A DNA stretch of 50,057 nt from a virus. Numbering within the stretch: position 1 is the first letter of the stretch; every line of letters begins with the position of its first letter. The translations under genes and the position numbers were made by a program. Below the pieces are notes generated by a model. The model saw nothing but the letters and a program-made list of their open reading frames with translations, had not been told where the DNA came from and did no database searches. The stretch is taken from the IMG/VR virus record IMGVR_UViG_3300046411_000702, positions 1-50,057 of that record. One strand, 5' to 3'. Shown here piece after piece: positions 2,665-45,242 of this stretch.

Positions 2665-2681
2665 TTATTTACTCCTTAAAA

Positions 2682-2727
2682 AATATATTTACACTTTCAG
2701 CATATATCATTGAAGCAAGGAAGTAAA
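2682..2727 (-). promoter_or_regulatory. Early-type promoter-leader cassette (leftward copy)
   Basis: Read on the minus strand: TTTACT (2727-2722), 17-bp spacer, TATGCT (2704-2699), 6 bases, then GTAAATATATT (2692-2682), followed by an AGGAG ribosome site and ATG at 2664. Spacing and the GTAAATATATT block match the copies at 31342, 32302 and 34230, which makes this a real repeated promoter. The rest of the 185-base gap (2665-2849) is A/T homopolymer runs with no clear promoter for the rightward protease gene. Confidence 0.85.
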
Positions 2728-2849
2728 CCCTAAAAAAGCGTTTTATTATAAAAAAAGTCTTTTTTTTTAATTTTTTTTATGTTCTAAGTATACATACACG
2801 TGTAAAAATGATGTAAATAGTTGAATTATACTTATTTATAGGATAAGAT

Positions 2850-3866
2850 ATGCCCATACCCAAAGTAAACAGGGGTGAAAAAGAAAAGGACTATATGTCC
2901 AGATGTATGTCTGACACCACTATGGTTTCAGAATATGATACAGACCAGAGGGTCGCTATTTGCTTAACACAGTTTAGAAACAAGAAGGAGCATAGCGTGA
3001 GCCTAAAATCAGAAATAAGAAAAGATGTATTCACAAGTGACTCTGAAGCCCAAGCAAGGGCTGATGAAATAGGTTGTACAGGAACGCATACGCATGATGC
3101 AGACGGCACTACTGTTTATATGCCTTGTGCAAGTCATGCAGATTATAGAAGATTAACAGGACAAGACCTAAAGGAAATCAATGATGAACTTGAGGCACAA
3201 TCTGATATAAATGAAAATGAAGGCACGCTAAATTGTGAAGCTGAATTAAAAGCATATGAAGATGACGATACTGAAAAAGGCGAGTTTACTGGATATGCTT
3301 CAATATTTGGTAATGTAGATTTAGGCAACGATGTAGTTGAACGTGGTGCATTTACTAAATCGCTTAGAAGAAAAGGATATAGAAAAGTTAAAATGCTTTA
3401 TCAGCATGACACCAAGCAACCCATAGGTGTTTTTGACATGATTAAAGAAGATGAAAATGGCTTGTTTGTAAAAGGCAGGTTAGCTATGCAGACTCAAAAA
3501 GGTAAAGAAGTATTTGAGTTAATGAAGATGGGTGCCATTGACGGATTATCAGTAGGTTATAGAGTTGATCAAAAGGGATACTCTTATGATGACAAAAAAG
3601 GCAAAAGAAGATTAAAAGAAGTAGATTTAATGGAGATTAGTGCTGTTACTTTTCCTATGAACCCCAAAGCTATGATTCAAGGGGTGAAAAGTGATAGTTC
3701 TATAAGAGAATGGGAAACACACATGCGAGAGGTTTGTGGTTTATCTCGTTCAGAAGCGAAGATGACTGCAAAAGCAGTTGTAAATGTCTTGAGTCAACGA
3801 GATGTTGATGATAGCGAGGCAGTTGTAACTGCAATAACAAACTTAACTCAACTTTTAAAGAGGTAA
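2850..3866 (+). CDS. Prohead maturation protease (HK97 U35 type) with N-terminal accessory domains
   Basis: 338 aa. The central region (about 143-275) has the fold signature of phage prohead proteases: GYASIFGNVDLGNDVVERGAF, H186 in MLYQHD, and S234 in GLSVGYRV as likely catalytic His and Ser. It should cut the capsid delta domain and itself during head maturation. The N-terminus is unusually long: residues 1-45 (IPKVNRGEKEKDYMSRCM) and 57-105 (EAQARADEIGCTGTHTHDADG) look like two small add-on modules also seen on other phage head proteins. The helical C-terminal tail (residues 280-338) is typical of the family. It sits directly before the capsid gene with a 2-base gap. Confidence in the protease is high; the role of the add-ons is unknown. 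Confidence 0.93.
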   Translation: MPIPKVNRGEKEKDYMSRCMSDTTMVSEYDTDQRVAICLTQFRNKKEHSVSLKSEIRKDVFTSDSEAQARADEIGCTGTHTHDADGTTVYMPCASHADYRRLTGQDLKEINDELEAQSDINENEGTLNCEAELKAYEDDDTEKGEFTGYASIFGNVDLGNDVVERGAFTKSLRRKGYRKVKMLYQHDTKQPIGVFDMIKEDENGLFVKGRLAMQTQKGKEVFELMKMGAIDGLSVGYRVDQKGYSYDDKKGKRRLKEVDLMEISAVTFPMNPKAMIQGVKSDSSIREWETHMREVCGLSRSEAKMTAKAVVNVLSQRDVDDSEAVVTAITNLTQLLKR

Positions 3867-30589: not shown

Positions 30590-31327
30590 ATAGTTGTAGC
30601 AGAAATTCTTACAGGAATAGCCCTTGTTAAACAAAGTGTAGACTTCATAAAGAGTAATATAAATACAGTTTCAGATATTAAAGACATAGCTAAACAGATT
30701 GATGGTTTTTTTGAAGGCGAATCTCAAATGAACAAAAAATCTGGTAAAGGGCTAGGAATAGCAGAACAGTTTGGAATAGAATCAACTGCTTCTGACTTTA
30801 TTGATAGAAAACTTTTAGAAGAAAAAAGACAAGAATTAAAAAATATGATTAACCTAAGATTTGGACCAACTGCTTGGGATCAAATTATAGCTGAAAGAGC
30901 AAATAGAATTTCAGAGGCAAAAGAAGCAGTCAGACTTCAAAAGGTTGAAAAAAGACAACAACAAAAAGAAATTATAGATACATTACAAACTATGGGTATT
31001 ATATTTTGTGTAATAGCTGTAATAGGTATAGTGATAATGCTTACATTTAAAGCTTATGCTTATGAATATAAACCTAGAAATTACACAAAAAAACAACTTG
31101 AAAATCAAGGTGTGATTCAAAAACCAAAATACACTACATGTCGTTTACAAAAACGAATAAAATCAAAAAGTGGTATGATGGCTTGTATTTATATAGGTAA
31201 TAATCAAACTTATGAAATGATGATAGAAAGTTGGTGTCCCAAACAATATAAATGTATTTATAACCCTTGGGGCAAAGAGCCAAATATAGATGATGTCATT
31301 AACTCTCTTAATAGTGCTGTAAAATAA
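30590..31327 (+). CDS. Single-TM protein, probably starting at a non-AUG (ATA) codon
   Basis: From the first ATG (30728) the protein has 199 aa, but the frame is open for 46 codons more, encoding a well-ordered helix (VVAEILTGIALVKQSVDFI, NTVSDIKDIAKQIDGFF). AAGGGAGG at 30577-30584 is placed 5 bases before ATA at 30590, while 30728 has no ribosome site. I therefore choose a 245-aa form; a +1 slip from the upstream gene is the alternative. One membrane helix lies near residues 134-156, followed by a Cys-containing outer domain (six Cys). Function unknown, perhaps envelope-acting. Confidence 0.6.
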   Translation: MVVAEILTGIALVKQSVDFIKSNINTVSDIKDIAKQIDGFFEGESQMNKKSGKGLGIAEQFGIESTASDFIDRKLLEEKRQELKNMINLRFGPTAWDQIIAERANRISEAKEAVRLQKVEKRQQQKEIIDTLQTMGIIFCVIAVIGIVIMLTFKAYAYEYKPRNYTKKQLENQGVIQKPKYTTCRLQKRIKSKSGMMACIYIGNNQTYEMMIESWCPKQYKCIYNPWGKEPNIDDVINSLNSAVK

Positions 31328-31341
31328 ACTCTATAAAAGGG

Positions 31342-31388
31342 TTTACTTCTTTAAATTTTATATATATCATGAAATATGTAAATATATT
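31342..31388 (+). promoter_or_regulatory. Early promoter-leader cassette, copy 1
   Basis: TTTACT (31342-31347), 17-bp spacer, TATCAT (31365-31370), 7 bases, GTAAATATATT (31378-31388), then AGGAG and ATG at 31403. GGG precedes the -35 as in the other copies. Confidence 0.88.
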
Positions 31389-31402
31389 AAAAGGAGATTT
31401 AA

Positions 31403-31594
31403 ATGAACGATATTTTACACGACATCAAAAAACTAGAAGACATACAGGCTTCTGTGGGTCAATTTTCAGCATCAACAGTTAAATCTTTCATACAGGATAT
31501 GATTAACGAAAAACAAAATATTATCCTAGAGTTTGAAAGTAATGTTCCTGCTCACATTAAAGAATTAAACAATAAAATCAAAGGAGATATATAA
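31403..31594 (+). CDS. Early small helical protein
   Basis: 63 aa, MNDILHDIKKLEDIQASVGQF, helical and acidic, with AGGAG before the ATG and its own promoter 15-60 bases upstream. First of a four-gene early unit. Family unknown; such first early genes often encode host-takeover peptides, but that is inference. Confidence 0.65.
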   Translation: MNDILHDIKKLEDIQASVGQFSASTVKSFIQDMINEKQNIILEFESNVPAHIKELNNKIKGDI

Positions 31595-31818
31595 TGGGTG
31601 GTCAAGCATTTAAAAATCATCTTGAAGATAGTTTTGATGATAAATTGATAACAATCATTAGCGATAGTCAGCATATTGAAGAAGCATTAAAAAAAGGTGA
31701 AGAACTTTTTGGTCAAATGTTTTCAGGTCAATGTACTGACGGCATACCAACTGATATGTTGAGTGAACATATAACAGATGTATGGAACGAATATTGGTCA
31801 AAATATTATGTCAGGTAG
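31594..31818 (+). CDS. Early small acidic protein
   Basis: 74 aa, MGGQAFKNHLEDSFDDKLI, EEALKKGEELFGQMF, soluble and helical, no family recognised. The ATG overlaps the previous stop by one base; GGAG lies 8 bases before it. Early-unit member. Confidence 0.65.
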   Translation: MGGQAFKNHLEDSFDDKLITIISDSQHIEEALKKGEELFGQMFSGQCTDGIPTDMLSEHITDVWNEYWSKYYVR

Positions 31819-32020
31819 TTTTAATGAGGATATAATTATCAAGATATCCTTAAAAGAATTAAATAAAATGAAACTTACTAGCAGTGAATTAACCACTGTT
31901 AGTAAGATAATTGAATGGGTAGAACCTCTGCAAGATGATGCGAGTTTAAAAGAAGATTTTGAAAAAATTAATAAACTTAATAAAAAAATAAAAAGGTTAT
32001 TAGGAAATGCTGAATATTGA
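31808..32020 (+). CDS. Early small protein
   Basis: 70 aa if it starts at ATG 31808 (MSGSFNEDIIIKISLKELN), overlapping the previous stop by 11 bases; an ATG at 31778 would add ten residues inside the upstream gene. Helical with a basic C-terminus (KLNKKIKRLLGNAEY). Function unknown. Confidence 0.6.
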   Translation: MSGSFNEDIIIKISLKELNKMKLTSSELTTVSKIIEWVEPLQDDASLKEDFEKINKLNKKIKRLLGNAEY

Positions 32021-32267
32021 AGTAAAGAAAATATGGGCAGGTAAATATGCCTCAATTAGAGAGCCTCAATTAAAAAAGGCTATATCAAGTGGTGGTCTTA
32101 TTATTAAATTTGATAATAAACACATGATACTTAATAAAAATGAATTGATGAATTTAAAATCAAACACACGAGAATTTAAAAGTAAATTTGGTAACAAACC
32201 ATATAGACTTATTGATATTGTGTGGAAACCTTCTGAAATCCCTATAAACCAACTAAATTTAATATAA
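32007..32267 (+). CDS. Early small basic protein
   Basis: 86 aa, MLNIEVKKIWAGKYASIREP, basic with strand-like GGLIIKFDNKHMILNKNEL. The arrangement could suit a small nucleic-acid or protein binder, but no family is recognised. Last gene of the first early unit; an A/T-rich gap with promoter copy 2 follows. Confidence 0.6.
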   Translation: MLNIEVKKIWAGKYASIREPQLKKAISSGGLIIKFDNKHMILNKNELMNLKSNTREFKSKFGNKPYRLIDIVWKPSEIPINQLNLI

Positions 32268-32301
32268 TTACGTTTTTTTTAATAAAAACTCTTTTTTAGG
32301 G

Positions 32302-32348
32302 TTTACTTCTGTAAAGAATGGGTTTATGCTGAAAAGTGTAAATACATT
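32302..32348 (+). promoter_or_regulatory. Early promoter-leader cassette, copy 2
   Basis: TTTACT (32302-32307), 17-bp spacer, TATGCT (32325-32330), 7 bases, GTAAATACATT (32338-32348), then CAGGAG and ATG at 32365. One base differs from the consensus leader block. Confidence 0.9.
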
Positions 32349-32364
32349 TTAACAGGAGAAAAAA

Positions 32365-32943
32365 ATGAAAATAGTTATTCACGTTCAAGACTTAGAAGCT
32401 AGAGGCGATAGATGGAAATATACTTTTGGTGAGTGTTATGTCATTAGAAATATATCTGAAGTAGATTTAGCTAAATATGATAATGTTTACTTTAAGGAGT
32501 TCTTAGAGAACCATTTTAACTCATCATATACTGGGTTAGCACCTACTCAAGAATATGAGAGGCAATCTTATATTCATTCAATTGATATTAAGGAAGATAA
32601 TGAAGAAGAAACTGATCCTTGGATAGTCCCTTACGAACTTAAGGTTATTGAGCATCATGTTGATGCTGACCTTGCCAGAGGGGTAGCAGTAAACTCTTGC
32701 TCATTATTTGCTTCAAGATTCTGCCCTAGAGAAGACCATTGGTCAACAGCCCCTAAGTATCAAGATATAATAGGTTATGTTGAGCAGTGTGTTATCACCC
32801 CTACTTGTGATCATCAAAATTATAAAAAAGAGTATGTGTCAAAAGATACTCAAGAGATAGTAATTGATGGTTTTACTCATAATGATTTCTCAAGAAAGCC
32901 TTATGATATGAACGCTAATTATGATGAACAGGAAGCCTCTTAA
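32365..32943 (+). CDS. Unknown early protein
   Basis: 192 aa, MKIVIHVQDLEARGDRWKYTFGE, acidic, with SCSLFASRFCPREDHW and four Cys in the C-terminal half that could bind metal (SRFCPRED, EQCVITPTCDH). First gene of the second early unit. No family recognised. Confidence 0.65.
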   Translation: MKIVIHVQDLEARGDRWKYTFGECYVIRNISEVDLAKYDNVYFKEFLENHFNSSYTGLAPTQEYERQSYIHSIDIKEDNEEETDPWIVPYELKVIEHHVDADLARGVAVNSCSLFASRFCPREDHWSTAPKYQDIIGYVEQCVITPTCDHQNYKKEYVSKDTQEIVIDGFTHNDFSRKPYDMNANYDEQEAS

Positions 32944-32953
32944 TGAGGCTTCC
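32931..32953 (+). terminator. Perfect 9-bp hairpin across a gene end
   Basis: GGAAGCCTC, loop TTAAT, GAGGCTTCC, spanning the stop codon of the 192-aa gene. No T-tract follows, so it is more likely an RNA-stability or translation-spacing element than an intrinsic terminator. Confidence 0.5.
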
Positions 32954-32969
32954 CATGGGGAGATATAAT

Positions 32970-33248
32970 ATGAAAAAAACAATCTGCTTATTATTTATTG
33001 TCCTTGCATCATGCTCTAGTCAAGAAAGATATATCATTGACCCAAGAGCGAGTAAATACCCTAAAGAATTATTTAGGGATAAATTAGAGTGTAAGGAAAT
33101 CGCTAAAACCCTTATAGAGGCAAAGAACGAGACTATCTTTGGCTTTATACCTTTTTGTACGTCAAGTGAATGTATGAGATTTGCAGACGTTAATTACGAC
33201 CCAATCAAAAAATGCCTAGTAAATCGTGGGCATTCTGTTTTAAATTAA
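32970..33248 (+). CDS. Small lipoprotein
   Basis: 92 aa from ATG 32970, preferred because GGGGAG is correctly spaced and MKKTICLLFIVLASCSS is a perfect lipoprotein signal (lipobox LASC, Cys at residue 15); an upstream in-frame ATG at 32943 would spoil it. The mature part has four further Cys (CKEIAK, FCTSSEC, CLVNRG). Export to the cell envelope in an early operon suggests superinfection exclusion or envelope modification; inference only. Confidence 0.75.
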   Translation: MKKTICLLFIVLASCSSQERYIIDPRASKYPKELFRDKLECKEIAKTLIEAKNETIFGFIPFCTSSECMRFADVNYDPIKKCLVNRGHSVLN

Positions 33249-33258
33249 GGAGAAAAAT

Positions 33259-34161
33259 ATGTTAAATACTGAAATAAGACACGCTTTAAATGAAATCAAT
33301 TTTCCAATAGCTGTTCAAGAAATCCCTACTATCCCTAATGATCAATTTAGAAAAATCGTTAGAACTGATAGTGATACTTTTTTAGGTATGTGTAAAACTA
33401 GATATAAGCCTATAAATCATATGGATGCGTTTGGTGGTGCTATTGAAAACATTATAAATGCAGGTCTAAAAGTAAATCCAGAAGATATAAAGGTTGAAAG
33501 CTACGAACATGGTGCTATGGCTAAAATGGAATTCACTATTCCTCAACAAAAAGTTATTGTTGGTAAACATGAACTCACATTGAAATATATAGCTAGAAAT
33601 TCATATAATGGTCGTTGGAAGTTTCAATCATTTTTTGGGTGGTTAAATGCAGTTTGTTTTAATACATTAGTATCAGGTCGTCAACTTGCCTATACAGCAA
33701 ACAGACACACAAAGCTTTTTGACATTGAGGCATCAAATGCAAAAATATACAATGCAGTTGAAGCAGTTACTGACGAAACTAAAAATTATACTGACTGGTG
33801 GTATAAAAGAATTGATGATGATCAAGTAGCAGATATGTTTAAAAAGACTATCTGCAAAAAAGACACCAACATTCAAAAATATGTTTCTGAAGATCAAGAA
33901 ACTAATAAAAAGCGTTTATCACAATTAATGGATTTATATGACGCTGAGAGACGTCAAATACATGGCAAGGGTGATTACACCAATGGATATGTAAAAGGCT
34001 CTCTATGGTGTGCTTTTCAATCAGCAACGTACTGGTCAACGCATATTGATTCTACTATGGCTAAAGATAATTATAAAAAACATATTATCCAACAAAAGAG
34101 GGAAACTTCAGTTAGAAATATGATTAATTCAAATACATGGAAAGAATTAGAAAAAGTTTAA
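33259..34161 (+). CDS. DUF932-like phage/plasmid protein
   Basis: 300 aa. TFLGMCKTRYKPINHMDAFGGAIENI, AKMEFTIPQQKVIV and LKYIARNSYNGRWKFQSFFGW follow the DUF932 (TIGR03299-type) pattern, a family widespread on phages and plasmids with unclear role, thought to be linked to DNA metabolism. AAGGAG precedes the ATG. The gene is followed by a strong terminator. Confidence 0.8.
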   Translation: MLNTEIRHALNEINFPIAVQEIPTIPNDQFRKIVRTDSDTFLGMCKTRYKPINHMDAFGGAIENIINAGLKVNPEDIKVESYEHGAMAKMEFTIPQQKVIVGKHELTLKYIARNSYNGRWKFQSFFGWLNAVCFNTLVSGRQLAYTANRHTKLFDIEASNAKIYNAVEAVTDETKNYTDWWYKRIDDDQVADMFKKTICKKDTNIQKYVSEDQETNKKRLSQLMDLYDAERRQIHGKGDYTNGYVKGSLWCAFQSATYWSTHIDSTMAKDNYKKHIIQQKRETSVRNMINSNTWKELEKV

Positions 34162-34180
34162 AAATTAATAAAAATTTAAA

Positions 34181-34207
34181 AGGAGGGTTAATAGCCCTCT
34201 TTTTTTT
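34181..34207 (+). terminator. Rho-independent terminator
   Basis: A GGAGGG/CCCTCT stem (one G-U) with a seven-base loop is followed by eight Ts. It closes the second early unit just before promoter copy 3. Confidence 0.88.
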
Positions 34208-34229
34208 ATAAAAAAACCCTATTTAAGGG

Positions 34230-34275
34230 TTTACTTTAAAGTAAAAGTGTAGTACTCTAATAATGTAAATATATT
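34230..34275 (+). promoter_or_regulatory. Early promoter-leader cassette, copy 3
   Basis: TTTACT (34230-34235), 17-bp spacer, TACTCT (34253-34258), 6 bases, GTAAATATATT (34265-34275), AGGAG and ATG at 34291. An inverted repeat AAACCCT/AGGGTTT (34214-34232) overlaps its -35. Confidence 0.87.
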
Positions 34276-34290
34276 TTAAGGAGTAATTAA

Positions 34291-34530
34291 ATGAACGATA
34301 TAAATAATTCAAATGAATATGATGCTTATCTAGTAAGGCATTCAGTAGGTTATATGGTGACTCAATTTCTAGGTCGTGGTCAATATAATAAAACTGAATT
34401 TGATACTATTGATCAAGCTAATCAGTTTGTAAGTAAAGTAAAAGAATCAAATCCTAATGCTAGAGTAATGGTTTATGGTTTATCAATGCCACCTCATGCT
34501 ACTAAGCCTATTTCAATAGCTATAAATTAA
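34291..34530 (+). CDS. Early small protein
   Basis: 79 aa, MNDINNSNEYDAYLVRHSVGYMVTQFLGRGQYN, TIDQANQFVSKVKESNPNARVMVYGLSMPP. Looks like a small alpha/beta fold, first gene of the third early unit. No family recognised. Confidence 0.65.
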   Translation: MNDINNSNEYDAYLVRHSVGYMVTQFLGRGQYNKTEFDTIDQANQFVSKVKESNPNARVMVYGLSMPPHATKPISIAIN

Positions 34531-34541
34531 GGAGGATTATT

Positions 34542-35771
34542 ATGAAAGCTTTATTATGCAGTGAAGTCATTAGTGCTTTGGGTAATCCTAAAAAGAGTAT
34601 TTTAGGTTATTGTGGGGGCAAGATAGCTGATGCTAAAATTAATCAATTAAGAAGTGAATTAGTTTTATCAAATAAGTTTAGTTTTTCAAATGAATTTTTG
34701 AAAAAGGTAACTCATGCAAGTTTTGAAAAACCTTCAGTTCTTTTAGATATGTGTGACTCAGCCATACCTCCATTTAATAATATTTGGATAGAGTGGGACG
34801 AAGATTTACGTCAAGAAATTCATGAGGAGTTCCATGGTTCAAAAATTTATAATATGAAAAGTTATAAAGATATTGGTGGTTTAGGTTATCACATTAAAAG
34901 TTTTGAAGATGACTTGGGTGATAGATACTTCTTATATCAAGCTTATTTTAAACACGATAAGTGGAAACAGATAGCCTCACAGCCTATGTGCTTTACTTTA
35001 AATAATGCAACTAATGACATGACTTATGACGATTATCGTGCCAAGCAAGAATTATTAGCTGAAATACCATCTTATATGCAGGCTAAAGATGAAAAGCAGT
35101 GGAATAATACAGTTTTTGAAGTTGGCTCAAAACTTATGGCACACTGGTATACTATGCAGTATGTTCCAAAGAAAGTGTTGAATAAACATGCAGAGATTAA
35201 TTCTGATGGTAATGGTTCTTTCATGGTTGATGCTAAAGTTGCTCACGAGTTAAAAAAATATAATAAATCATATGAGTGGAACTGCCTTTATGAATTATTT
35301 GAAAGATTAGGTTCAGTACAAGGAGCACCTATGCATTGGTCAATACCTGCACATAAATTTGAGCAGGGATATACCCTTGAAGAAATGAGGCAATTTAATA
35401 ATGCTTTTTTAGATTCATGTGAGGGTGATGCACGATTTATCATTTCAGCACTTGGGTTAATGAATATGGGTATACATGAGTCAACAGTTGTACAACCTGA
35501 TAATAAAATAATTCATACTTATAATAGTCAAAGAGTTCCAAGAAATGAGTATAAAGTTTTGAATATTAACCTTACTGAAAGGCAAGTAAGAAAGCTTTAT
35601 AAAAGTAAATTTACAGGTCAAGGGTCAGCCAAGCGTGAACATGAAAGGAGGGGTCATTGGAGGCATTATAGAGACGCTACTGGAACTATAATAAGAAAGG
35701 TATGGGTCAAATCTTGTACAGCAGGTAATAAAAATCTAGGCTCAATAGATAAAGATTATAATATTAAATAG
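34542..35771 (+). CDS. Large early protein of unknown function
   Basis: 409 aa with GGAGG before the ATG. The C-terminal REHERRGHWRHYRDATGTI segment (His/Arg-rich) is a motif I recall from proteins of marine phages with unknown role, and the 90-150 region (GGLGYHIKSFEDDLGDRYF) is well ordered. No catalytic motif is evident. The size and early placement suggest a major early function, possibly host takeover or DNA binding. Confidence 0.7.
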   Translation: MKALLCSEVISALGNPKKSILGYCGGKIADAKINQLRSELVLSNKFSFSNEFLKKVTHASFEKPSVLLDMCDSAIPPFNNIWIEWDEDLRQEIHEEFHGSKIYNMKSYKDIGGLGYHIKSFEDDLGDRYFLYQAYFKHDKWKQIASQPMCFTLNNATNDMTYDDYRAKQELLAEIPSYMQAKDEKQWNNTVFEVGSKLMAHWYTMQYVPKKVLNKHAEINSDGNGSFMVDAKVAHELKKYNKSYEWNCLYELFERLGSVQGAPMHWSIPAHKFEQGYTLEEMRQFNNAFLDSCEGDARFIISALGLMNMGIHESTVVQPDNKIIHTYNSQRVPRNEYKVLNINLTERQVRKLYKSKFTGQGSAKREHERRGHWRHYRDATGTIIRKVWVKSCTAGNKNLGSIDKDYNIK

Positions 35772-35780
35772 GAGGATAAT

Positions 35781-35999
35781 ATGAAAAATGTATGTATATT
35801 TGATGATTTATTTGAAGCAATTAAAAATAATAATCGTCATGAAACACTAAAGCTCTTTAAGTTATGTGTCAGGGCAAATACAAACCTTGATAAACTAGCA
35901 CAAAGATTGCAAAATAAATTTGATAAAGAGTTAATCTTTATTGATGACATTAGAAATTATCTTGCGAATTTTATTTGTCGTGCTAGGATGTATAAATGA
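35781..35999 (+). CDS. Early small helical protein
   Basis: 72 aa, MKNVCIFDDLFEAIKNNNRHETLKLFKLC, all helical, GGAGG before the ATG. Last rightward early gene before a structured non-coding stretch. No family recognised. Confidence 0.6.
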   Translation: MKNVCIFDDLFEAIKNNNRHETLKLFKLCVRANTNLDKLAQRLQNKFDKELIFIDDIRNYLANFICRARMYK

Positions 36000-36041
36000 T
36001 TGGTTATGGTCTGATGAAATATATTTACACATTTTCTTCTT

Positions 36042-36173
36042 AGCACCATTTAGCGACATAAAGCATCAGATAATATGTCGCAATGATTTAGTTTTGGTGT
36101 CCTTTCAATTCATTTACCAAAACTTAAGGGTGAACTTGATGGTTATGGTTGAACATTAGGTTCACCCATTTTT
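36042..36173 (+). ncRNA. Gene-free stretch with three consecutive hairpins, possible structured RNA ending in a terminator
   Basis: Stem 1: GCGACATA/TATGTCGC (36053-36060, 36074-36081). Stem 2: AGTTTTGGT/ACCAAAACT (36090-36098, 36116-36124). Stem 3: GGGTGAAC/GTTCACCC (36128-36135, 36160-36167), followed by ATTTTTA. CACCA (36044-36048) can alternatively pair with TGGTG (36095-36099), excluding stem 2. It lies between convergent gene ends; stem 3 is the likely terminator, stems 1-2 are unexplained. The RNA call is tentative. Confidence 0.5.
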
Positions 36174-38923: not shown

Positions 38924-38951
38924 ATTATATTGATTTGATATAAGAAGTAAA
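38924..38951 (-). promoter_or_regulatory. Leftward promoter of the recombination operon
   Basis: On the minus strand: TTTACT (38951-38946), 16-bp spacer, TATAAT (38929-38924). The -35 is the same hexamer as in the early promoters, but the GTAAATATATT block is absent. It is back-to-back with the rightward promoter at 38964; arms AAGTAAAC/GTTTACTT (38945-38952, 38963-38970) form an inverted repeat between them. Confidence 0.8.
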
Positions 38952-38963
38952 CCTTTTTTAGAG

Positions 38964-38992
38964 TTTACTTATGTGTTAAAATAAATTATTAC
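38964..38992 (+). promoter_or_regulatory. Rightward promoter of the replication/modification operon
   Basis: TTTACT (38964-38969), 17-bp spacer, TATTAC (38987-38992), then a degenerate TTAAATACT leader and AAGGAG before the TTG start at 39014. Only 12 bp separate its -35 from that of the leftward promoter, so polymerases should exclude each other. Confidence 0.72.
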
Positions 38993-39013: not shown

Positions 39014-39229
39014 TTGAGATTAATCAGCTACATAAAGCAAAATGGATTTAATATTAAAAGCTTTGCAAGAGAAATAGGGACGTCACATAGAAATATGGAA
39101 ATGTGGGCTAGAGGTGAACGTATGCCTAGATGGAAGGAAGCAGAAAAGATATTTATTTACACTAATAATGCAGTTACAGGGCATGATTTATATGAGGAAC
39201 AAATACAACGCAAAAAAGCAAATATATAA
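39014..39229 (+). CDS. HTH regulator, Cro/CI-like
   Basis: 71 aa, TTG start with AAGGAG spaced correctly. SFAREIGTSHRNMEMWARGERMPRWKEAEKIF is a helix-turn-helix of the Cro/CI type (similar to YdaS-like antitoxin and phage regulators). It lies directly behind the divergent promoters and is the obvious candidate to act on the palindrome between them. The TTG start suggests low expression. Confidence 0.8.
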   Translation: MRLISYIKQNGFNIKSFAREIGTSHRNMEMWARGERMPRWKEAEKIFIYTNNAVTGHDLYEEQIQRKKANI

Positions 39230-41849: not shown

Positions 41850-42463
41850 TAGTAGAAATGTTAAATATTGATGATATTAAGCCATATCCATCAAACCCAA
41901 GGAAAATATCTAAAAAAGCTATAGAAATGGTAGGTAAGAGCATTCAAGAGTACGGATTTAGACAACCTATAGTCGTTGATAAAGATAATGTAATTATAAT
42001 AGGGCATACAAGATTTCAAGCCTCAAGACAACTTGGTCTTAAAGAAGTCCCATGTAATATAGCTGATTTACCTATTGAAAAAGCAAAAGCGTTAAGAATA
42101 GCTGATAACAGAATAAATGAGGAAACAGCATGGGACGATGCAAAACTAATTGAAGAATTAAATAGTTTACTTGAAGTAGATTACTTAATTGATAAATTAG
42201 GTTTCACACAAGAAGAACTTGATAGTTTATTCACAAAAGAAGACATATCTTTAGATGATGATAACGAAGACGATATTAATTATATTGATAATGATATGAA
42301 TGATGTTAAAATGGTACAACTATTCTATAACCCTGATGATGATAAGGTTTTTAGAGAAGGCTTAAATAATGTGATGGATAAATACAATATAACGAATATA
42401 TCTGATGCAGTTCTTAGGTGTGTAAAAAATGAAAACGATAAAATTAAATCCAGTAATAAATGA
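41846..42463 (+). CDS. ParB/Srx-like DNA-binding or nuclease-domain protein
   Basis: 205 aa from ATG 41846 (ATGA overlap with the primase-helicase). IDDIKPYPSNPRKISKKAIEMVGKSI, GFRQPIVVDKDNVIIIGHTRFQASRQLG is the ParB N-terminal domain; ADNRINEETAWD follows. The acidic C-terminal part (DISLDDDNEDDIN) is unusual. In phages this domain is frequently encoded next to DNA methyltransferases and modification genes; here it leads the modification cluster and overlaps the TET/JBP gene by 35 bases. Confidence 0.85.
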   Translation: MIVEMLNIDDIKPYPSNPRKISKKAIEMVGKSIQEYGFRQPIVVDKDNVIIIGHTRFQASRQLGLKEVPCNIADLPIEKAKALRIADNRINEETAWDDAKLIEELNSLLEVDYLIDKLGFTQEELDSLFTKEDISLDDDNEDDINYIDNDMNDVKMVQLFYNPDDDKVFREGLNNVMDKYNITNISDAVLRCVKNENDKIKSSNK

Positions 42464-43409
42464 TGAAGAAGCTAATAAACTTCAAGGTCAATTTATAGAT
42501 GAAAGTCTTGTTAAAATTGAAGTTAACGAAGATTTATGTGTTTTAAAAGAAGATGGTAGTTTATTAGCAGTTTTGAAAAAAAACGTTGTTCCAAAAGATA
42601 TTTTAGAAAAAGCTAGAGTCCCTTTTAGAAAAGCTTGTAAACAATCAAATAATAGAGGAATAGCATCAGGTGATATGTCTCAATTTTACAAAGTTGGTGA
42701 TAAGATTCAAGGGAGAACTATAGCTAAAATAGAAGGAGGAAGATATACAGCCCTTTTAAAAAATGGTAAACTTTCAACAACATCTTATGCTATGCCAGTT
42801 CATAGTTCAGTAATAGGTTATTCAGATAGATATCCAAGAATACCTTACTGTAGAACAACAGCTTATACTCAAAAATATTTTAAAGAATATGCAGAATGCT
42901 TGCCTTACATACATTGTGTAAATACATTTTTTAGCAAACATGCCCCAACTAAATATCATATTCAGAAGCAGTTAGCAGAGAATACTTCACCTGACTTTGT
43001 CATAAAAGATACTGCATTCACTACTGTAACAGTAAATAAAAACTTTAGAACAGCAGGGCATAAGGATAAAGGTGATTTAAAAGAAGGTTTTGGAAATTTA
43101 GGTGTTATTTCAAGAGGTCAGTATAACGGATGTATGACTGTTTTGCCTAAATATGGTGTAGGATTAAATATTAGGGACGGTGATATTGCTTTATTTGACG
43201 TACACGAAGTTCATGGAAATACAAAAGTAGAGGCAAAAAGCTATTATGAACGTATTTCAGTTGTATGTTATTATCGTGAAAAAATGATTTACTGTGGTAC
43301 TAAAGAATATGAATTGAATCGTGCCAAGACTGACACAAAGAAAGTTGCCTTAGACGAGGAAATACAAAAAGCAGATGAAATTAAATCAAAAATATTACAA
43401 GACAGCTAA
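42429..43409 (+). CDS. TET/JBP-type 2-oxoglutarate/Fe(II) DNA base dioxygenase
   Basis: 326 aa. FRTAGHKDKGDLKEGFGNLG carries the iron motif HxD (H211, D213); the distal ligand is probably H262 (EVHGN; H259 is an alternative), and R275 (YERISVVCYY) fits the 2-oxoglutarate-binding Arg. NGCMTVLPKYGVGLNIRDGDIALFDVHE is the double-stranded beta-helix core typical of the JBP/TET family, which oxidises the methyl group of 5-methylcytosine or thymine in DNA. Neighbours suggest the hydroxymethyl group is further modified. The N-terminal 90 residues are not part of the core. Substrate (5mC or T) cannot be told from sequence. Confidence 0.87.
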   Translation: MKTIKLNPVINDEEANKLQGQFIDESLVKIEVNEDLCVLKEDGSLLAVLKKNVVPKDILEKARVPFRKACKQSNNRGIASGDMSQFYKVGDKIQGRTIAKIEGGRYTALLKNGKLSTTSYAMPVHSSVIGYSDRYPRIPYCRTTAYTQKYFKEYAECLPYIHCVNTFFSKHAPTKYHIQKQLAENTSPDFVIKDTAFTTVTVNKNFRTAGHKDKGDLKEGFGNLGVISRGQYNGCMTVLPKYGVGLNIRDGDIALFDVHEVHGNTKVEAKSYYERISVVCYYREKMIYCGTKEYELNRAKTDTKKVALDEEIQKADEIKSKILQDS

Positions 43410-44133
43410 ATTATGTAAAAAATATAATTACATATTTTATAATAATTTTTCGTCAGAAGAAAATGTAAGCAAACATAAACAAAGTTATATACATTTTGTA
43501 AAAAACGAACAACAGCTTGTTTCAGCGAAATGTTTAGCTACTGAGTGGCTTATCAAAGATATAAAAGATAATAACTTAACTTTATTTGAATATTTTGCTG
43601 GGGCAGGGGTATCATCAATTATATTTAATAAAACTATGAATATAAACTATCATGAAGCAACTGACTTTAATCAAGATTGTGTGAATCAATTAAAAAAGAT
43701 GAAAATTATCCATAAAGCATATAAATCTGATTTCAGAAAAATTATTCTAAAAGAAAATAAATTTGATATAAAAGTTTTAGATTTTCCATACTCAAGTATT
43801 TTACAAACTACTAGAGGTGATTGGAATATGTTTGGATACGCTTTTAGCTCTGAACCAAAATATTTGATATGGACTGATACAGCTAGAACTTATCCTTTAT
43901 CAATTCATAAAAAAAAATATGAAAAGATTTTAAATGATTCACTTAATGATTATGAAGATTATTTTGAAAAATACTCAAATCTTTTGTTTCAAAATTATAG
44001 ATACAGAATAAATAAGGTTGCATGGAGAGGTAAAAACGCAAATTATATTTTGGCATCAAAACAAAATACAAATATAAGTCATAAAATGTTTGAACTTAAT
44101 GAAAAAAATGAGGGCTTTCAATGGATAACATAG
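43375..44133 (+). CDS. Methyltransferase-fold protein with atypical DFPYS motif
   Basis: 252 aa. LFEYFAGAGVSSIIF (residues 70-84) is a SAM-binding FxGxG-type motif; residue D97 or E94 (YHEATDFN) is at the acidic position; DFPYS (136-140) occupies the place of the NPPY/DPPY motif of amino-MTases. It could methylate DNA (feeding the dioxygenase) or have shifted to another group transfer. The Pro-Cys of 5mC methyltransferases is absent, so 5mC formation is not supported. It overlaps the dioxygenase by 35 bases and the next gene by 13. Confidence 0.65.
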   Translation: MKLNQKYYKTAKLCKKYNYIFYNNFSSEENVSKHKQSYIHFVKNEQQLVSAKCLATEWLIKDIKDNNLTLFEYFAGAGVSSIIFNKTMNINYHEATDFNQDCVNQLKKMKIIHKAYKSDFRKIILKENKFDIKVLDFPYSSILQTTRGDWNMFGYAFSSEPKYLIWTDTARTYPLSIHKKKYEKILNDSLNDYEDYFEKYSNLLFQNYRYRINKVAWRGKNANYILASKQNTNISHKMFELNEKNEGFQWIT

Positions 44134-45242
44134 GAAGATATTGTGCTATTCATGATATATATGAAGATTCAAATTTAAAAAAAGGATATGACTTTCGTTT
44201 ACCACAGTACAGAAGAGAAGTATTTCTACGTTTATATGAATTTAATTTAAAGTATAATGCTCATGCAGGGTTTGTATATGGTGCTTTACCTTATTTGAAC
44301 AATAAATTTAATCTAGATAATGAGCAAAAACTTTGGTTAGGTTTTATTAATGGATGTACGCAAAATATTGTAACATCATGGATAGTCTTTGAACTGTTTC
44401 CTAATATTAAAGAATTTAATGTAGATACATTTAATAAATGGTGGAATATAAATTATAAAAAATTTATGGTTGGCAAAGGTTGGGATTTAGATAGAAGATA
44501 TTTTAAAATAGGGAAAACTGGTTTCCCACAGTGTATTGATTCTTATATAAAACAAGTTGTCAAGTTTGGTAATCAAACAAATATGTTTAATGCTATATGC
44601 AATAAAAATGATAAATATCAAAACTTTGAGAATTTATGGACATTTATAAGAGAGAACTTTTTGAGTTTTGGAAGATTATCAACCTTTTCGTATACAGAGT
44701 TTTTGAGGATTCAAGGTTTAAATATTGATTGTAACAATTTATTCTTAGAAGACATATCAGGAAGTAAGTCACATAGGAACGGATTATGTAAGGTTCTTGG
44801 TCGTGATGACTTAGATTGGTGGAAAGATAAAGTTAAATATTCACCAGAGATAATATCTTGGTTGAAAGACGAAGCAAATATGCTTTTTAATGAAATGAAA
44901 GCACGCAACAACCATGAACATTTAAGCTTTTACACCTTTGAAACAGCTTTATGTAACTACAAATCAATGCATAGACCCAAACGAAGATACCCTAATGTAT
45001 ATAATGACATGTTTTTTAATCGTATTAAATACGCAGAATCAGTATGGGAAAAGCCATTTGATATATTTTGGCAGATGAGGAAAGAATTATTACCAAGCGA
45101 ATTAAGGCTTGAAAATAATAAAAAAGATGTTGGCTTACATCACTTAAAACAAAATCATTATCTTAACACTGGAGAAGTTATAATGATGGATAAGGAGTGG
45201 GAGTGCTTTCAAAACTCTTATAATGATTATGTTAATGGCTAA
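44121..45242 (+). CDS. Putative base-hypermodification protein (aGPT-Pplase/5-hmdU kinase helical-domain-like)
   Basis: 373 aa. The pattern REVFLRLYEFNLKYNAHAGFVY, LWLGFINGCTQNIVTSWIVFELFP is what I recall of the all-helical family named alpha-glutamyl/putrescinyl-thymine pyrophosphorylase (also annotated as the 5-hmdU DNA kinase helical domain), seen in phages SP10, PhiW-14 and ViI. It acts with a P-loop kinase in thymine hypermodification. The kinase gene directly follows with an 8-base overlap. I cannot confirm family membership by search; the combination with a TET/JBP gene strengthens it. Several lysine/aromatic-rich segments lie in the C-terminal half. Confidence 0.72.
   Translation: MDNIGRYCAIHDIYEDSNLKKGYDFRLPQYRREVFLRLYEFNLKYNAHAGFVYGALPYLNNKFNLDNEQKLWLGFINGCTQNIVTSWIVFELFPNIKEFNVDTFNKWWNINYKKFMVGKGWDLDRRYFKIGKTGFPQCIDSYIKQVVKFGNQTNMFNAICNKNDKYQNFENLWTFIRENFLSFGRLSTFSYTEFLRIQGLNIDCNNLFLEDISGSKSHRNGLCKVLGRDDLDWWKDKVKYSPEIISWLKDEANMLFNEMKARNNHEHLSFYTFETALCNYKSMHRPKRRYPNVYNDMFFNRIKYAESVWEKPFDIFWQMRKELLPSELRLENNKKDVGLHHLKQNHYLNTGEVIMMDKEWECFQNSYNDYVNG

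Follow-up and report, generated by a model that had tools for sequence, protein, structure and literature searches.

Why does one short block, GTAAATA(T/C)ATT, recur in this phage just where several messages are predicted to begin? In the window (the whole stretch of DNA analyzed, 50,057 nucleotides), the sequence-only reading had reported a promoter-leader cassette with an exact 17 bp spacer at 31342, 32302, 34230 and, on the minus strand, 2727, and all four copies were recovered (Table 1). The combination TTTACT-17-TANNNT-6/7-GTAAATA(T/C)ATT-SD, where SD is the Shine-Dalgarno sequence, has four occurrences in the window and occurred in 0 of 200 dinucleotide shuffles; the leader block alone, with at most one mismatch, has 17 matches in the window against 7.3 expected. 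AGGAG and then ATG follow in each cassette. The earlier description of the -10 as TATGCT-like holds literally for two copies (32302 and 2727) and not for the others, which read TATCAT (31342) and TACTCT (34230). One copy does lie inside the head genes: the minus-strand cassette sits between a head-morphogenesis ORF (38-1261) and a protease ORF (2850-3866) and reads into small minus-strand ORFs. We propose, with a probability of about 0.7, that a structured trans-acting antisense RNA, predicted from the sequence, shuts off translation of the early operons, and that the leader block is its target.

Table 1. Positions of the promoter-leader cassettes, the putative antisense element and neighboring features in the window.
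Feature	Positions	Strand	Details
Cassette 1	31326..31402	+	Inverted repeat 31326-31344; -35 TTTACT 31342-31347; -10 TATCAT 31365-31370; 7-base gap; block GTAAATATATT 31378-31388; SD; ATG 31403
Cassette 2	32286..32364	+	Inverted repeat 32286-32304; -35 TTTACT 32302-32307; -10 TATGCT 32325-32330; 7-base gap; block GTAAATACATT 32338-32348; ATG 32365
Cassette 3	34214..34290	+	Inverted repeat 34214-34232; -35 TTTACT 34230-34235; -10 TACTCT 34253-34258; 6-base gap; block GTAAATATATT 34265-34275; ATG 34291
Cassette 4	2665..2743	-	Inverted repeat 2743-2725; -35 TTTACT 2727-2722; -10 TATGCT 2704-2699; 6-base gap; block GTAAATATATT 2692-2682; ATG 2664
Operon behind cassette 3	34291..35999	+	Genes of 79, 409 and 72 aa
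Proposed 5' pseudoknot strand	36010..36016	+	TCTGATG; identical in L005
Anti-leader	36017..36030	+	AAATATATTTACAC; complement of leader block
Hairpin	36053..36081	+	GCGACATA-AAGCATCAGATAA-TATGTCGC; loop CATCAGA 36064-36070 complements 36010-36016
Further hairpin	36090..36124	+	AGTTTTGGT...ACCAAAACT; same predicted RNA, window only
Long hairpin, then ATTTTT	36128..36173	+	GGGTGAAC...GTTCACCC; probable terminator between convergent operons, predicted RNA 3' end
Divergent promoter region, HTH gene (39014+) / recombination operon (38891-)	38943..38977		Inverted repeat AAGTAAAC...GTTTACTT, without leader block

The block is seldom found outside operon-first genes that have a promoter, which supports the earlier suggestion that early genes share an initial-transcript element and form a regulon. 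In the window and contigs L005 and L062, promoters were called for 10 of 13 block-bearing genes and for 12 of 88 others. Association of the block with operon-first genes gave Fisher p values of 6.5e-6 in lineage A, 4.3e-8 in B and 1.6e-14 in C; the promoter association is absent for the leaders of lineage E (p = 1). Single promoter calls mean little, because the sigma-70 promoter scan makes calls at the level found in shuffled sequence.

On the transcribed strand, the exact complement of the block is found at one intergenic site (36018-36028), which the sequence-only reading had not noted and which alters the interpretation, in the tail of the operon that starts with cassette 3; in that orientation, GTAAATATATT is matched exactly at only one further place, the minus-strand cassette. 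Cassettes 4, 3 and 1 are complementary to the anti-leader at this site over 14, 13 and 12 bases, respectively, while cassette 2 has one mismatch, a C of its block opposite an A of the anti-leader. The 72-aa ORF, which has relatives in several lineages, ends 10 bases 5' of the proposed pseudoknot strand. Folded on the transcribed strand, the window element beats 200 of 200 shuffles (z -4.9). No counterpart of its two additional 3' hairpins was seen in relatives, and no plus-strand gene follows closely downstream.

In each lineage with pairing, the first genes of operons carry a leader block particular to that lineage, and an intergenic element carries the anti-leader that matches it. The leader is GUAAAUAYAUUU in lineage A, GCACAGGAG in lineage B and CAUAGGAG in lineage E, and lineage C has three states (GGGAGAAAACA, GGGAGAAAAUU, and GGGAGAAAGA). 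Within lineage A, both partners are found in only two contigs. The closest relative, L005 (61% identity in a 300-aa protein), keeps GTAAATACATT in six cassettes, while the -35 and -10 become TTGACA/TATAAT-like. Its element is placed alike, behind the 409-aa gene and a small gene, and is identical to the window at 22 of 23 bases around the anti-leader; the sole change, A to G, matches a leader change of T to C in all six L005 cassettes. Between lineages the block differs completely, the intergenic element changes alongside, and complementarity is kept, which fits RNA pairing. The sequence-only reading had counted free variation of the block in relatives against itself, and here the outcome is mixed: the block is fixed within a lineage and replaced between lineages, with the replacement matched by the anti-leader.

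Complementarity to the leader that exceeds chance and covaries was found in lineages A, B, and C, and in lineage E with chosen leaders; it was not found in lineages D and G or in L056. In lineage D (L034, L037, L039, L040, L047), both the hairpin and the pseudoknot are present without a matching leader, and the L039 and L047 leaders pair with its element at background level only. Leaders recur in lineage G (L063-L070) too, and the two contigs inspected contain no element; L056 has recurrent leaders for which an anti-leader was not found.

An untargeted screen sought recurrent leader 9-mers with a complement on the same strand, without being given the location of the element. The element was among the matches in the window and in L005, L006, L007, L015, L010, L011, L012, L013, L014, L016, L017, L018, L042, L045, and L050. 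When whole contigs were scanned by duplex energy against promoter leaders, the element ranked first in L006, L007, L015, L012, L013, and L017, and in L008 and L009 the top window, with no preset target, was a new anti-leader matching their own variant GGGAGAAAGA. The element of the window, whose pairing is A/T-rich, ranked only 47 of 12,506 windows, and that of L052 (lineage E) ranked 883 of 3425, where the promoter finder chose one unrelated gene; the leaders of lineage E were chosen by hand. In a matrix of leaders against anti-leaders from seven states, the true assignment was the best of all permutations, and 21 of 100,000 random permutations reached its score, with about 1/5040 expected from drawing the identity itself. 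With two lineage D elements added, the true score was reached by 0 of 100,000.

The fold covaries as well. Stem pairs were counted by script, the MAFFT alignments of the hairpins being misregistered, and among 13 distinct hairpin stems 86 of 91 pairs are formed; 0 of 100,000 permutations were as good, and all five missing pairs belong to the L042 stem, which was taken out of register. The pseudoknot was tested in 11 representatives with hand-chosen anchors: scored on run length, it was equaled in 2 of 200,000 permutations, and scored on energy in none of 200,000; without anchors the result is weaker (1188 of 200,000). No convincing pseudoknot was seen in lineage B. For the L005 element, a folding program that is blind to pseudoknots gave no advantage over shuffles (z 0.14). 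A descriptor scan combining anchor, pseudoknot and hairpin gave 29 matches against 13.3 in shuffles and missed the window element.

The computations show that the leader recurs, that a conserved intergenic element contains its complement, that the two change together from lineage to lineage, and that the hairpin and, except in lineage B, the pseudoknot covary. From these we infer that the RNA exists, where its ends lie, that it pairs with the leaders, that pairing represses, and when it acts. The target would be the block at the extreme 5' end of early messages. The antisense RNA (about 36005-36173) would be made at the 3' end of the 34230-cassette operon, probably by transcription from the operon's own promoter followed by excision as a 3'-end-derived RNA. 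It would present a single-stranded anti-leader between its 5' strand and the downstream hairpin, these two forming the pseudoknot. After enough early transcription, it would act in trans on the early operons, including the one that encodes it, by annealing to each leader over or beside the ribosome-binding site, so that translation is blocked or the messages are marked for decay. The early genes would in effect time their own shut-off.

In lineages B, C, and E the Shine-Dalgarno sequence lies within the paired region, which favors repression, with the caveat that any anti-SD would share this part of the complement. Pairing in lineage A contains no SD and lies just upstream of it, which would suit an element that acts in cis, or one that protects or activates its own or other messages (by opening the leader or blocking 5' decay), or leaders that titrate the RNA and free a downstream gene. 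The lineage B element is directly 5' of an oxygenase-like gene, and its anti-leader could close on the GCAUAGGAG SD of that gene. We consider such roles unlikely, given the covered Shine-Dalgarno sequences of B, C, and E and the lack of a plus-strand gene closely after the element in the window.

The sequence-only reading had also offered the block as a repressor or activator site. The block would then be a DNA site for a phage protein at the start of transcription, and the copy at 36018-36028, in reverse orientation, an extra site or decoy. The cassettes do carry an operator-like inverted repeat, AAACYCT-N5-AGGGTTT, overlapping the -35 in 4 of 4 (in 18 loci together, such a repeat overlies the -35 in 46 of 71 promoters, where shuffling gives 11.8 on average), and a small HTH protein is encoded at 39014 on the plus strand. 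This separate repeat fits the DNA-operator idea better than the leader block does, and the divergent promoter beside the HTH gene has the repeat without the block. The extra copy, moreover, is part of a fold that looks like RNA and whose stems covary, has the same orientation and a similar location in every lineage possessing it, and follows the leader in six other states, which include Shine-Dalgarno sequences. An operator would keep its sequence independently of an RNA partner; here the block is replaced together with the anti-leader between lineages. The leader block is therefore probably not a protein-binding site, and we give this reading a still smaller chance than a protective or cis-acting element. 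Least probable is that the leaders are lineage-specific promoter or ribosome-site cassettes spread by duplication and the element a chance or anti-Shine-Dalgarno coincidence, as the recurrent leaders without a detectable anti-leader in D, G, and L056 might suggest, since the matches extend past the SD and tell GGGAGAAAACA, GGGAGAAAAUU, and GGGAGAAAGA apart within one clade, lineage A pairing is free of SD, and the permutation results speak for specific partners.

Similar DNA was found in phage records neither for window positions 1-25000 (near search) nor for 32365-34161 (distant search). The 300-aa protein had no tblastn match, matches to the primase-helicase were below 60% identity only, and no relative was confirmed with the 409-aa gene as query. 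A prophage search of bacterial and archaeal genomes with an alignment-derived pattern gave 53 matches, none a relative. The lineage A element pattern found the L005 contig only; among the 122 matches listed for the lineage B loop pattern, full context was present only in L006, L007, and L015; and a looser lineage C hairpin pattern returned known contigs and nothing further. A hammerhead ribozyme, considered for the CUGAUGA of lineage A, was dropped, as no following core was seen and there was no Rfam match. The adjacent small ORF was rejected as a necessary partner because another ORF takes its place in L012 and L017, and lineage G has the ORF but lacks the element.

One small predicted RNA matches the leaders of several operons, and within one phage group seven different sequence states all preserve that match. 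If the antisense reading is true, early genes in these viruses, which have no isolate, would be under a compact post-transcriptional switch that can be re-coded, recognized from sequence alone. We tentatively suggest, as a possibility that we rate below even odds, that pseudoknotted phage guide RNAs of this kind form a new family, each switching off a whole early regulon through a shared leader "password". With a constant fold, and guide and leaders changing together, each phage lineage would then have a private code, and a resident phage could shut down an incoming relative whose password equals its own and not one with another, a simple RNA-level exclusion rule between co-infecting phages. 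The putative regulator and target RNA pairs would be a ready set for testing in laboratory bacteria, and the search itself is general: take the recurrent leader of a phage and seek its complement on the same strand.

Among known systems, the C4 RNA of phages P1 and P7, which is processed from a longer transcript by RNase P, appears nearest in kind, although the architecture differs. No Rfam family reached the gathering score in the window or seven relatives, and for three elements the matches up to E = 10 did not include the C4 covariance model. C4 is described as a structured RNA released from a longer phage transcript, with three stem-loops, a role in P1/P7 immunity, and two unpaired target-binding loops that pair with phage mRNA, one partly over the ribosome-binding site and the other giving target specificity (PMC5320573). 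The candidate RNA is likewise predicted to be structured and to pair with phage mRNA, and is proposed to be excised from a longer transcript. As far as C4 is described there, the candidate differs in having one linear anti-leader, one conserved hairpin and a proposed pseudoknot; several targets share one leader, the element is at an operon 3' end, and no prophage relative was found. P22 sar and sas and lambda OOP and aQ are phage RNAs that lower phage genes by pairing (PMC12197685; PMC5415839). Each has one target gene as described in these sources, whereas the predicted RNA would address a leader common to several operons, most of them away from its own locus. The CI RNA of satellite phage P4 is reportedly processed, pairs with leader sequences of its own operon and shuts off early expression, and is said to confer immunity through transcription termination on one operon. 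Pairing with leaders and early shut-off are predicted here too, with a target common to several operons. The phage antisense RNAs compared here act on one gene or leader each, and the literature searches made here brought up no description of such a shared-leader antisense RNA. Host sRNAs pair at the Shine-Dalgarno sequence of many mRNAs, using a short seed on several targets and occluding the ribosome-binding site. The same features are predicted for the candidate RNA, with the difference that its targets, all of them phage genes, have leaders that are nearly identical.

All four cassettes of the window, each a promoter with its leader, read TTTACT, 17 bases, TANNNT, 6-7 bases, the leader block GTAAATA(T/C)ATT, AGGAG and ATG. 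Three lie on the plus strand, at 31342, 32302, and 34230, and one on the minus strand, at 2727. The complete pattern occurred four times in the window and in 0 of 200 dinucleotide shuffles, which confirms the four cassettes of the sequence-only reading. That reading had also suggested that the block, at the predicted 5' end of early messages, may be a protein-binding site or an initial-transcript element defining a regulon. The regulon and the initial-transcript element were supported, and the protein site is replaced here by a putative antisense RNA, predicted from an intergenic element, that may regulate the leader-bearing operons.

The window (50,057 bases, 33.5% G+C) is an entire IMG/VR virus record and a tailed phage by gene content (terminase, portal, head protease, tape measure, primase-helicase, and recombination genes). 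It also carries genes, including one for a queuine tRNA-ribosyltransferase-like protein (phrog_6059, E 6.6e-07), that possibly serve 7-deazaguanine DNA modification. No tRNA or Rfam RNA was found in the window, Rfam gave no gathering-level match in the relatives examined, and searches of phage records and of bacterial and archaeal genomes turned up no related prophage or isolate. Alignment of nine homologues yielded 45 contigs; several of the listed loci are overlapping stretches of the same contig. The closest relative obtained with a 300-aa protein was L005, and lineage G (L063-L070) was obtained with a 192-aa protein. The phrog_1221 homologue of L007 is interrupted by a single in-frame stop codon.

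An exact complement of the leader block has one further copy in the window, between the end (35999) of a 72-aa ORF and a terminator-like hairpin where two operons converge. The element lies at the 3' end of an operon whose start carries the target leader. Its plus strand folds better than 200/200 shuffles (z -4.9); the opposite strand has z -3.3. L005 has the same element behind the same kind of genes. Its six cassettes all have leader GTAAATACATT vs GTAAATATATT in three of the four window cassettes, the surroundings of the anti-leader (the part complementary to the leader) are TGGTCTGATGAAATGTATTTACA vs TGGTCTGATGAAATATATTTACA in the window, and the L005 anti-leader has a G matching the change in its leaders. 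Cassette 2 of the window has a single mismatch to the anti-leader. L005 promoter hexamers are TTGACA-like and TATAAT-like, so the block was retained while the hexamers changed. L062 has four similar leaders (AGTAAATATATTT or TATAAATATATTT), and its contig stops short of the element's place. In several lineages the element is immediately preceded by a small conserved ORF of about 70-90 aa with a basic C-terminal end; this ORF occurs without the element in lineage G and is missing before it in L012 and L017.

Relatives were screened for leader 9-mers that recur in two or more genes and have a complement elsewhere on the same strand. The intergenic element was among the matches in many contigs, the others being minus-strand gene starts and coding places. 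By the author's tally, 25 of the 45 fetched contigs have the element, and some of the remaining 20 end before its place. The anti-leader matches its lineage's leaders in 20 of these 25, and the window is one more.

Own leaders against own element gave mean longest complementary runs of 8 to 12 bases in seven states (window, L005, L007, L052, L010, L017, and L009). The true assignment was the maximum over permutations, equaled by 21 of 100,000 random ones, roughly as often as the identity itself would be drawn from 5040; adding two lineage D elements brought the count to 0/100,000. Energy scans of entire contigs placed the element first in L006, L007, L015, L012, L013, and L017, and likewise, with no target given, the anti-leader of L008 and L009. 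A minus-strand gene-start window came first in L010, L011, L014, L042, and L050, where element windows ranked 4 to 7. Other ranks were 4 of 3700 (L045), 4 of 4216 (L005), 10 of 4174 (L025), and 47 of 12,506 (window). Lineage E rests on three leaders picked by the author, with a block not tied to promoter calls. Lineage D elements (L034, L037, L039, L040, and L047) have the hairpin and pseudoknot; a leader match was absent in L039 and L047 (runs 5.0 and 5.5; ranks 294 of 2860 and 263 of 1403). Recurrent leaders occur in L056, with no anti-leader (the tested place ranked 309 of 3412), and in lineage G, with no recurring complementary place; at the element's expected position, L065 and L068 have the following gene directly. 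Overall, the predicted leader/anti-leader pairing is well supported by these sequence comparisons.

From 5' to 3', the element begins with an anchor resembling UUGG and a strand of 5-7 bases. The anti-leader follows, then a spacer (C-rich in lineage C) and a hairpin whose loop includes the complement of the 5-7 base strand, a proposed pseudoknot. Lineage B had no convincing partner strand for the loop. Among 11 representatives, anchored permutation equaled the pseudoknot in 2/200,000 cases by run length and 0/200,000 by energy (1188/200,000 without anchors). Stems of 13 distinct sequences formed 86 of 91 pairs (permutation mean 49, 0/100,000), a figure that overstates independence because they had been selected as stems; position relative to other element parts was the component not built in.

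Features of the window and its relatives
Feature	Contig	Position	Sequence
Inverted repeat at cassettes	window	31326-31344, 32286-32304, 34214-34232 (+); 2743-2725 (-)	AAACYCT-N5-AGGGTTT
Similar repeat without leader block, divergent HTH (39014)/minus-strand recombination operon promoter region	window	38943-38970	AAGTAAACTCTAAAAAAGGTTTACTT
Promoter motif, lineage G	L066; L067; L068	7180-7260; 5955-6027; 515-587	AAACCTA...TAGGTTTA
300-aa protein	window	33259-34161	
Small conserved ORF before element's place	window; L006; L010; L068	35781-35999; 4073-4285; 9932-10195; 6036-6251	
Leader block complement	window	36018-36028 (+)	
Terminator-like hairpin	window	36128-36173	
Possible DNA modification genes	window	42429-45242	
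phrog_1221 homologue	L007	1506-2414	
Element and ribosome site of following gene, lineage B	L006; L007; L015	4356-4430; 5035-5108; 4104-4178	
Leader/anti-leader, lineage B	L006, L007, L015		GCACAGGAG/CTCCTGTGC (TCCTGTGC in L007)
Leader/anti-leader, lineage C	L010, L011, L012, L013, L014, L016, L018, L042, L045, L050		GGGAGAAAACA/TGTTTTCTCCC
Leader/anti-leader	L017		GGGAGAAAATT/AATTTTCTCCC
Leader (read in L025)/anti-leader	L024, L025		GTGGGAGAAAATT/TTTTTTTCTCCCAC
Leader/anti-leader	L008, L009		GGGAGAAAGA/TCTTTCTCCC
Leader/anti-leader, lineage E	L052		CATAGGAG/CTCCTATG
Pseudoknot strand/loop	window, L005		UCUGAUG/CAUCAGA
Pseudoknot strand/loop	L017		UCUUCAU/AUGAAGA
Pseudoknot strand/loop	L025		UCUCUAU/AUAGAGA
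Pseudoknot strand/loop	L010, L011, L042		UCGCC/GGCGA
Pseudoknot strand/loop	L012		CUCCG/CGGAG
Pseudoknot strand/loop	L052		CCAGUA/UACUGG
Pseudoknot strand/loop	L039		UUCAG/CUGAA
Pseudoknot strand/loop	L047		UCAGC/GCUGA
Pseudoknot strand/loop (includes a G-U pair)	L009		CUUCGC/GCGAGG

A protein site is likely to exist elsewhere in the cassettes, as an inverted repeat overlapping the -35 in 4/4 (the minus-strand copy reads AAACGCT) is likely an operator, perhaps bound by the 39014 HTH protein. A similar repeat is present and the block absent in the divergent HTH/recombination region, so repeat and block are two separate things. The AAC/AAAC half-site stands at the right spacing upstream of GTT(T/G)AC in 46/71 promoters from 18 loci vs a mean of 11.8 (maximum 21) in shuffles. 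Lineage-specific forms of the inverted repeat, AACACAATATGTGTTGACA among them, are kept in relatives; the lineage G motif lies around the -10, not over the -35.

Pairing would cover the Shine-Dalgarno sequence in lineages B, C, and E; in lineage A it would fall on the very 5' end predicted for the message, a few bases before that sequence. The pairing rule is computed, and from it we infer delayed negative feedback as the simplest circuit: as early transcription continues, antisense RNA would build up and lower translation of every operon bearing the leader. A second possible partner of the lineage B anti-leader CUCCUGUGC is GCAUAGGAG, the ribosome site belonging to the gene directly after the element; this pairing may tie that gene to the supply of free leaders.

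The element is a candidate variant of phage antisense RNA, with pairing computed and regulation proposed. Rfam searches of three elements gave only sub-threshold, chance-like matches. The P4 CI RNA is a further phage RNA for comparison. Reviews name phage small RNAs including P22 sar and sas and lambda OOP and aQ (PMC5415839, PMC12197685), and a leader shared across several operons with a co-varying guide is undescribed in the portions of this literature examined. Nearest in mode of working among described RNAs is the P1/P7 C4 RNA, a structured, processed phage RNA in which one loop lies partly over a ribosome-binding site and another confers specificity (PMC5320573).
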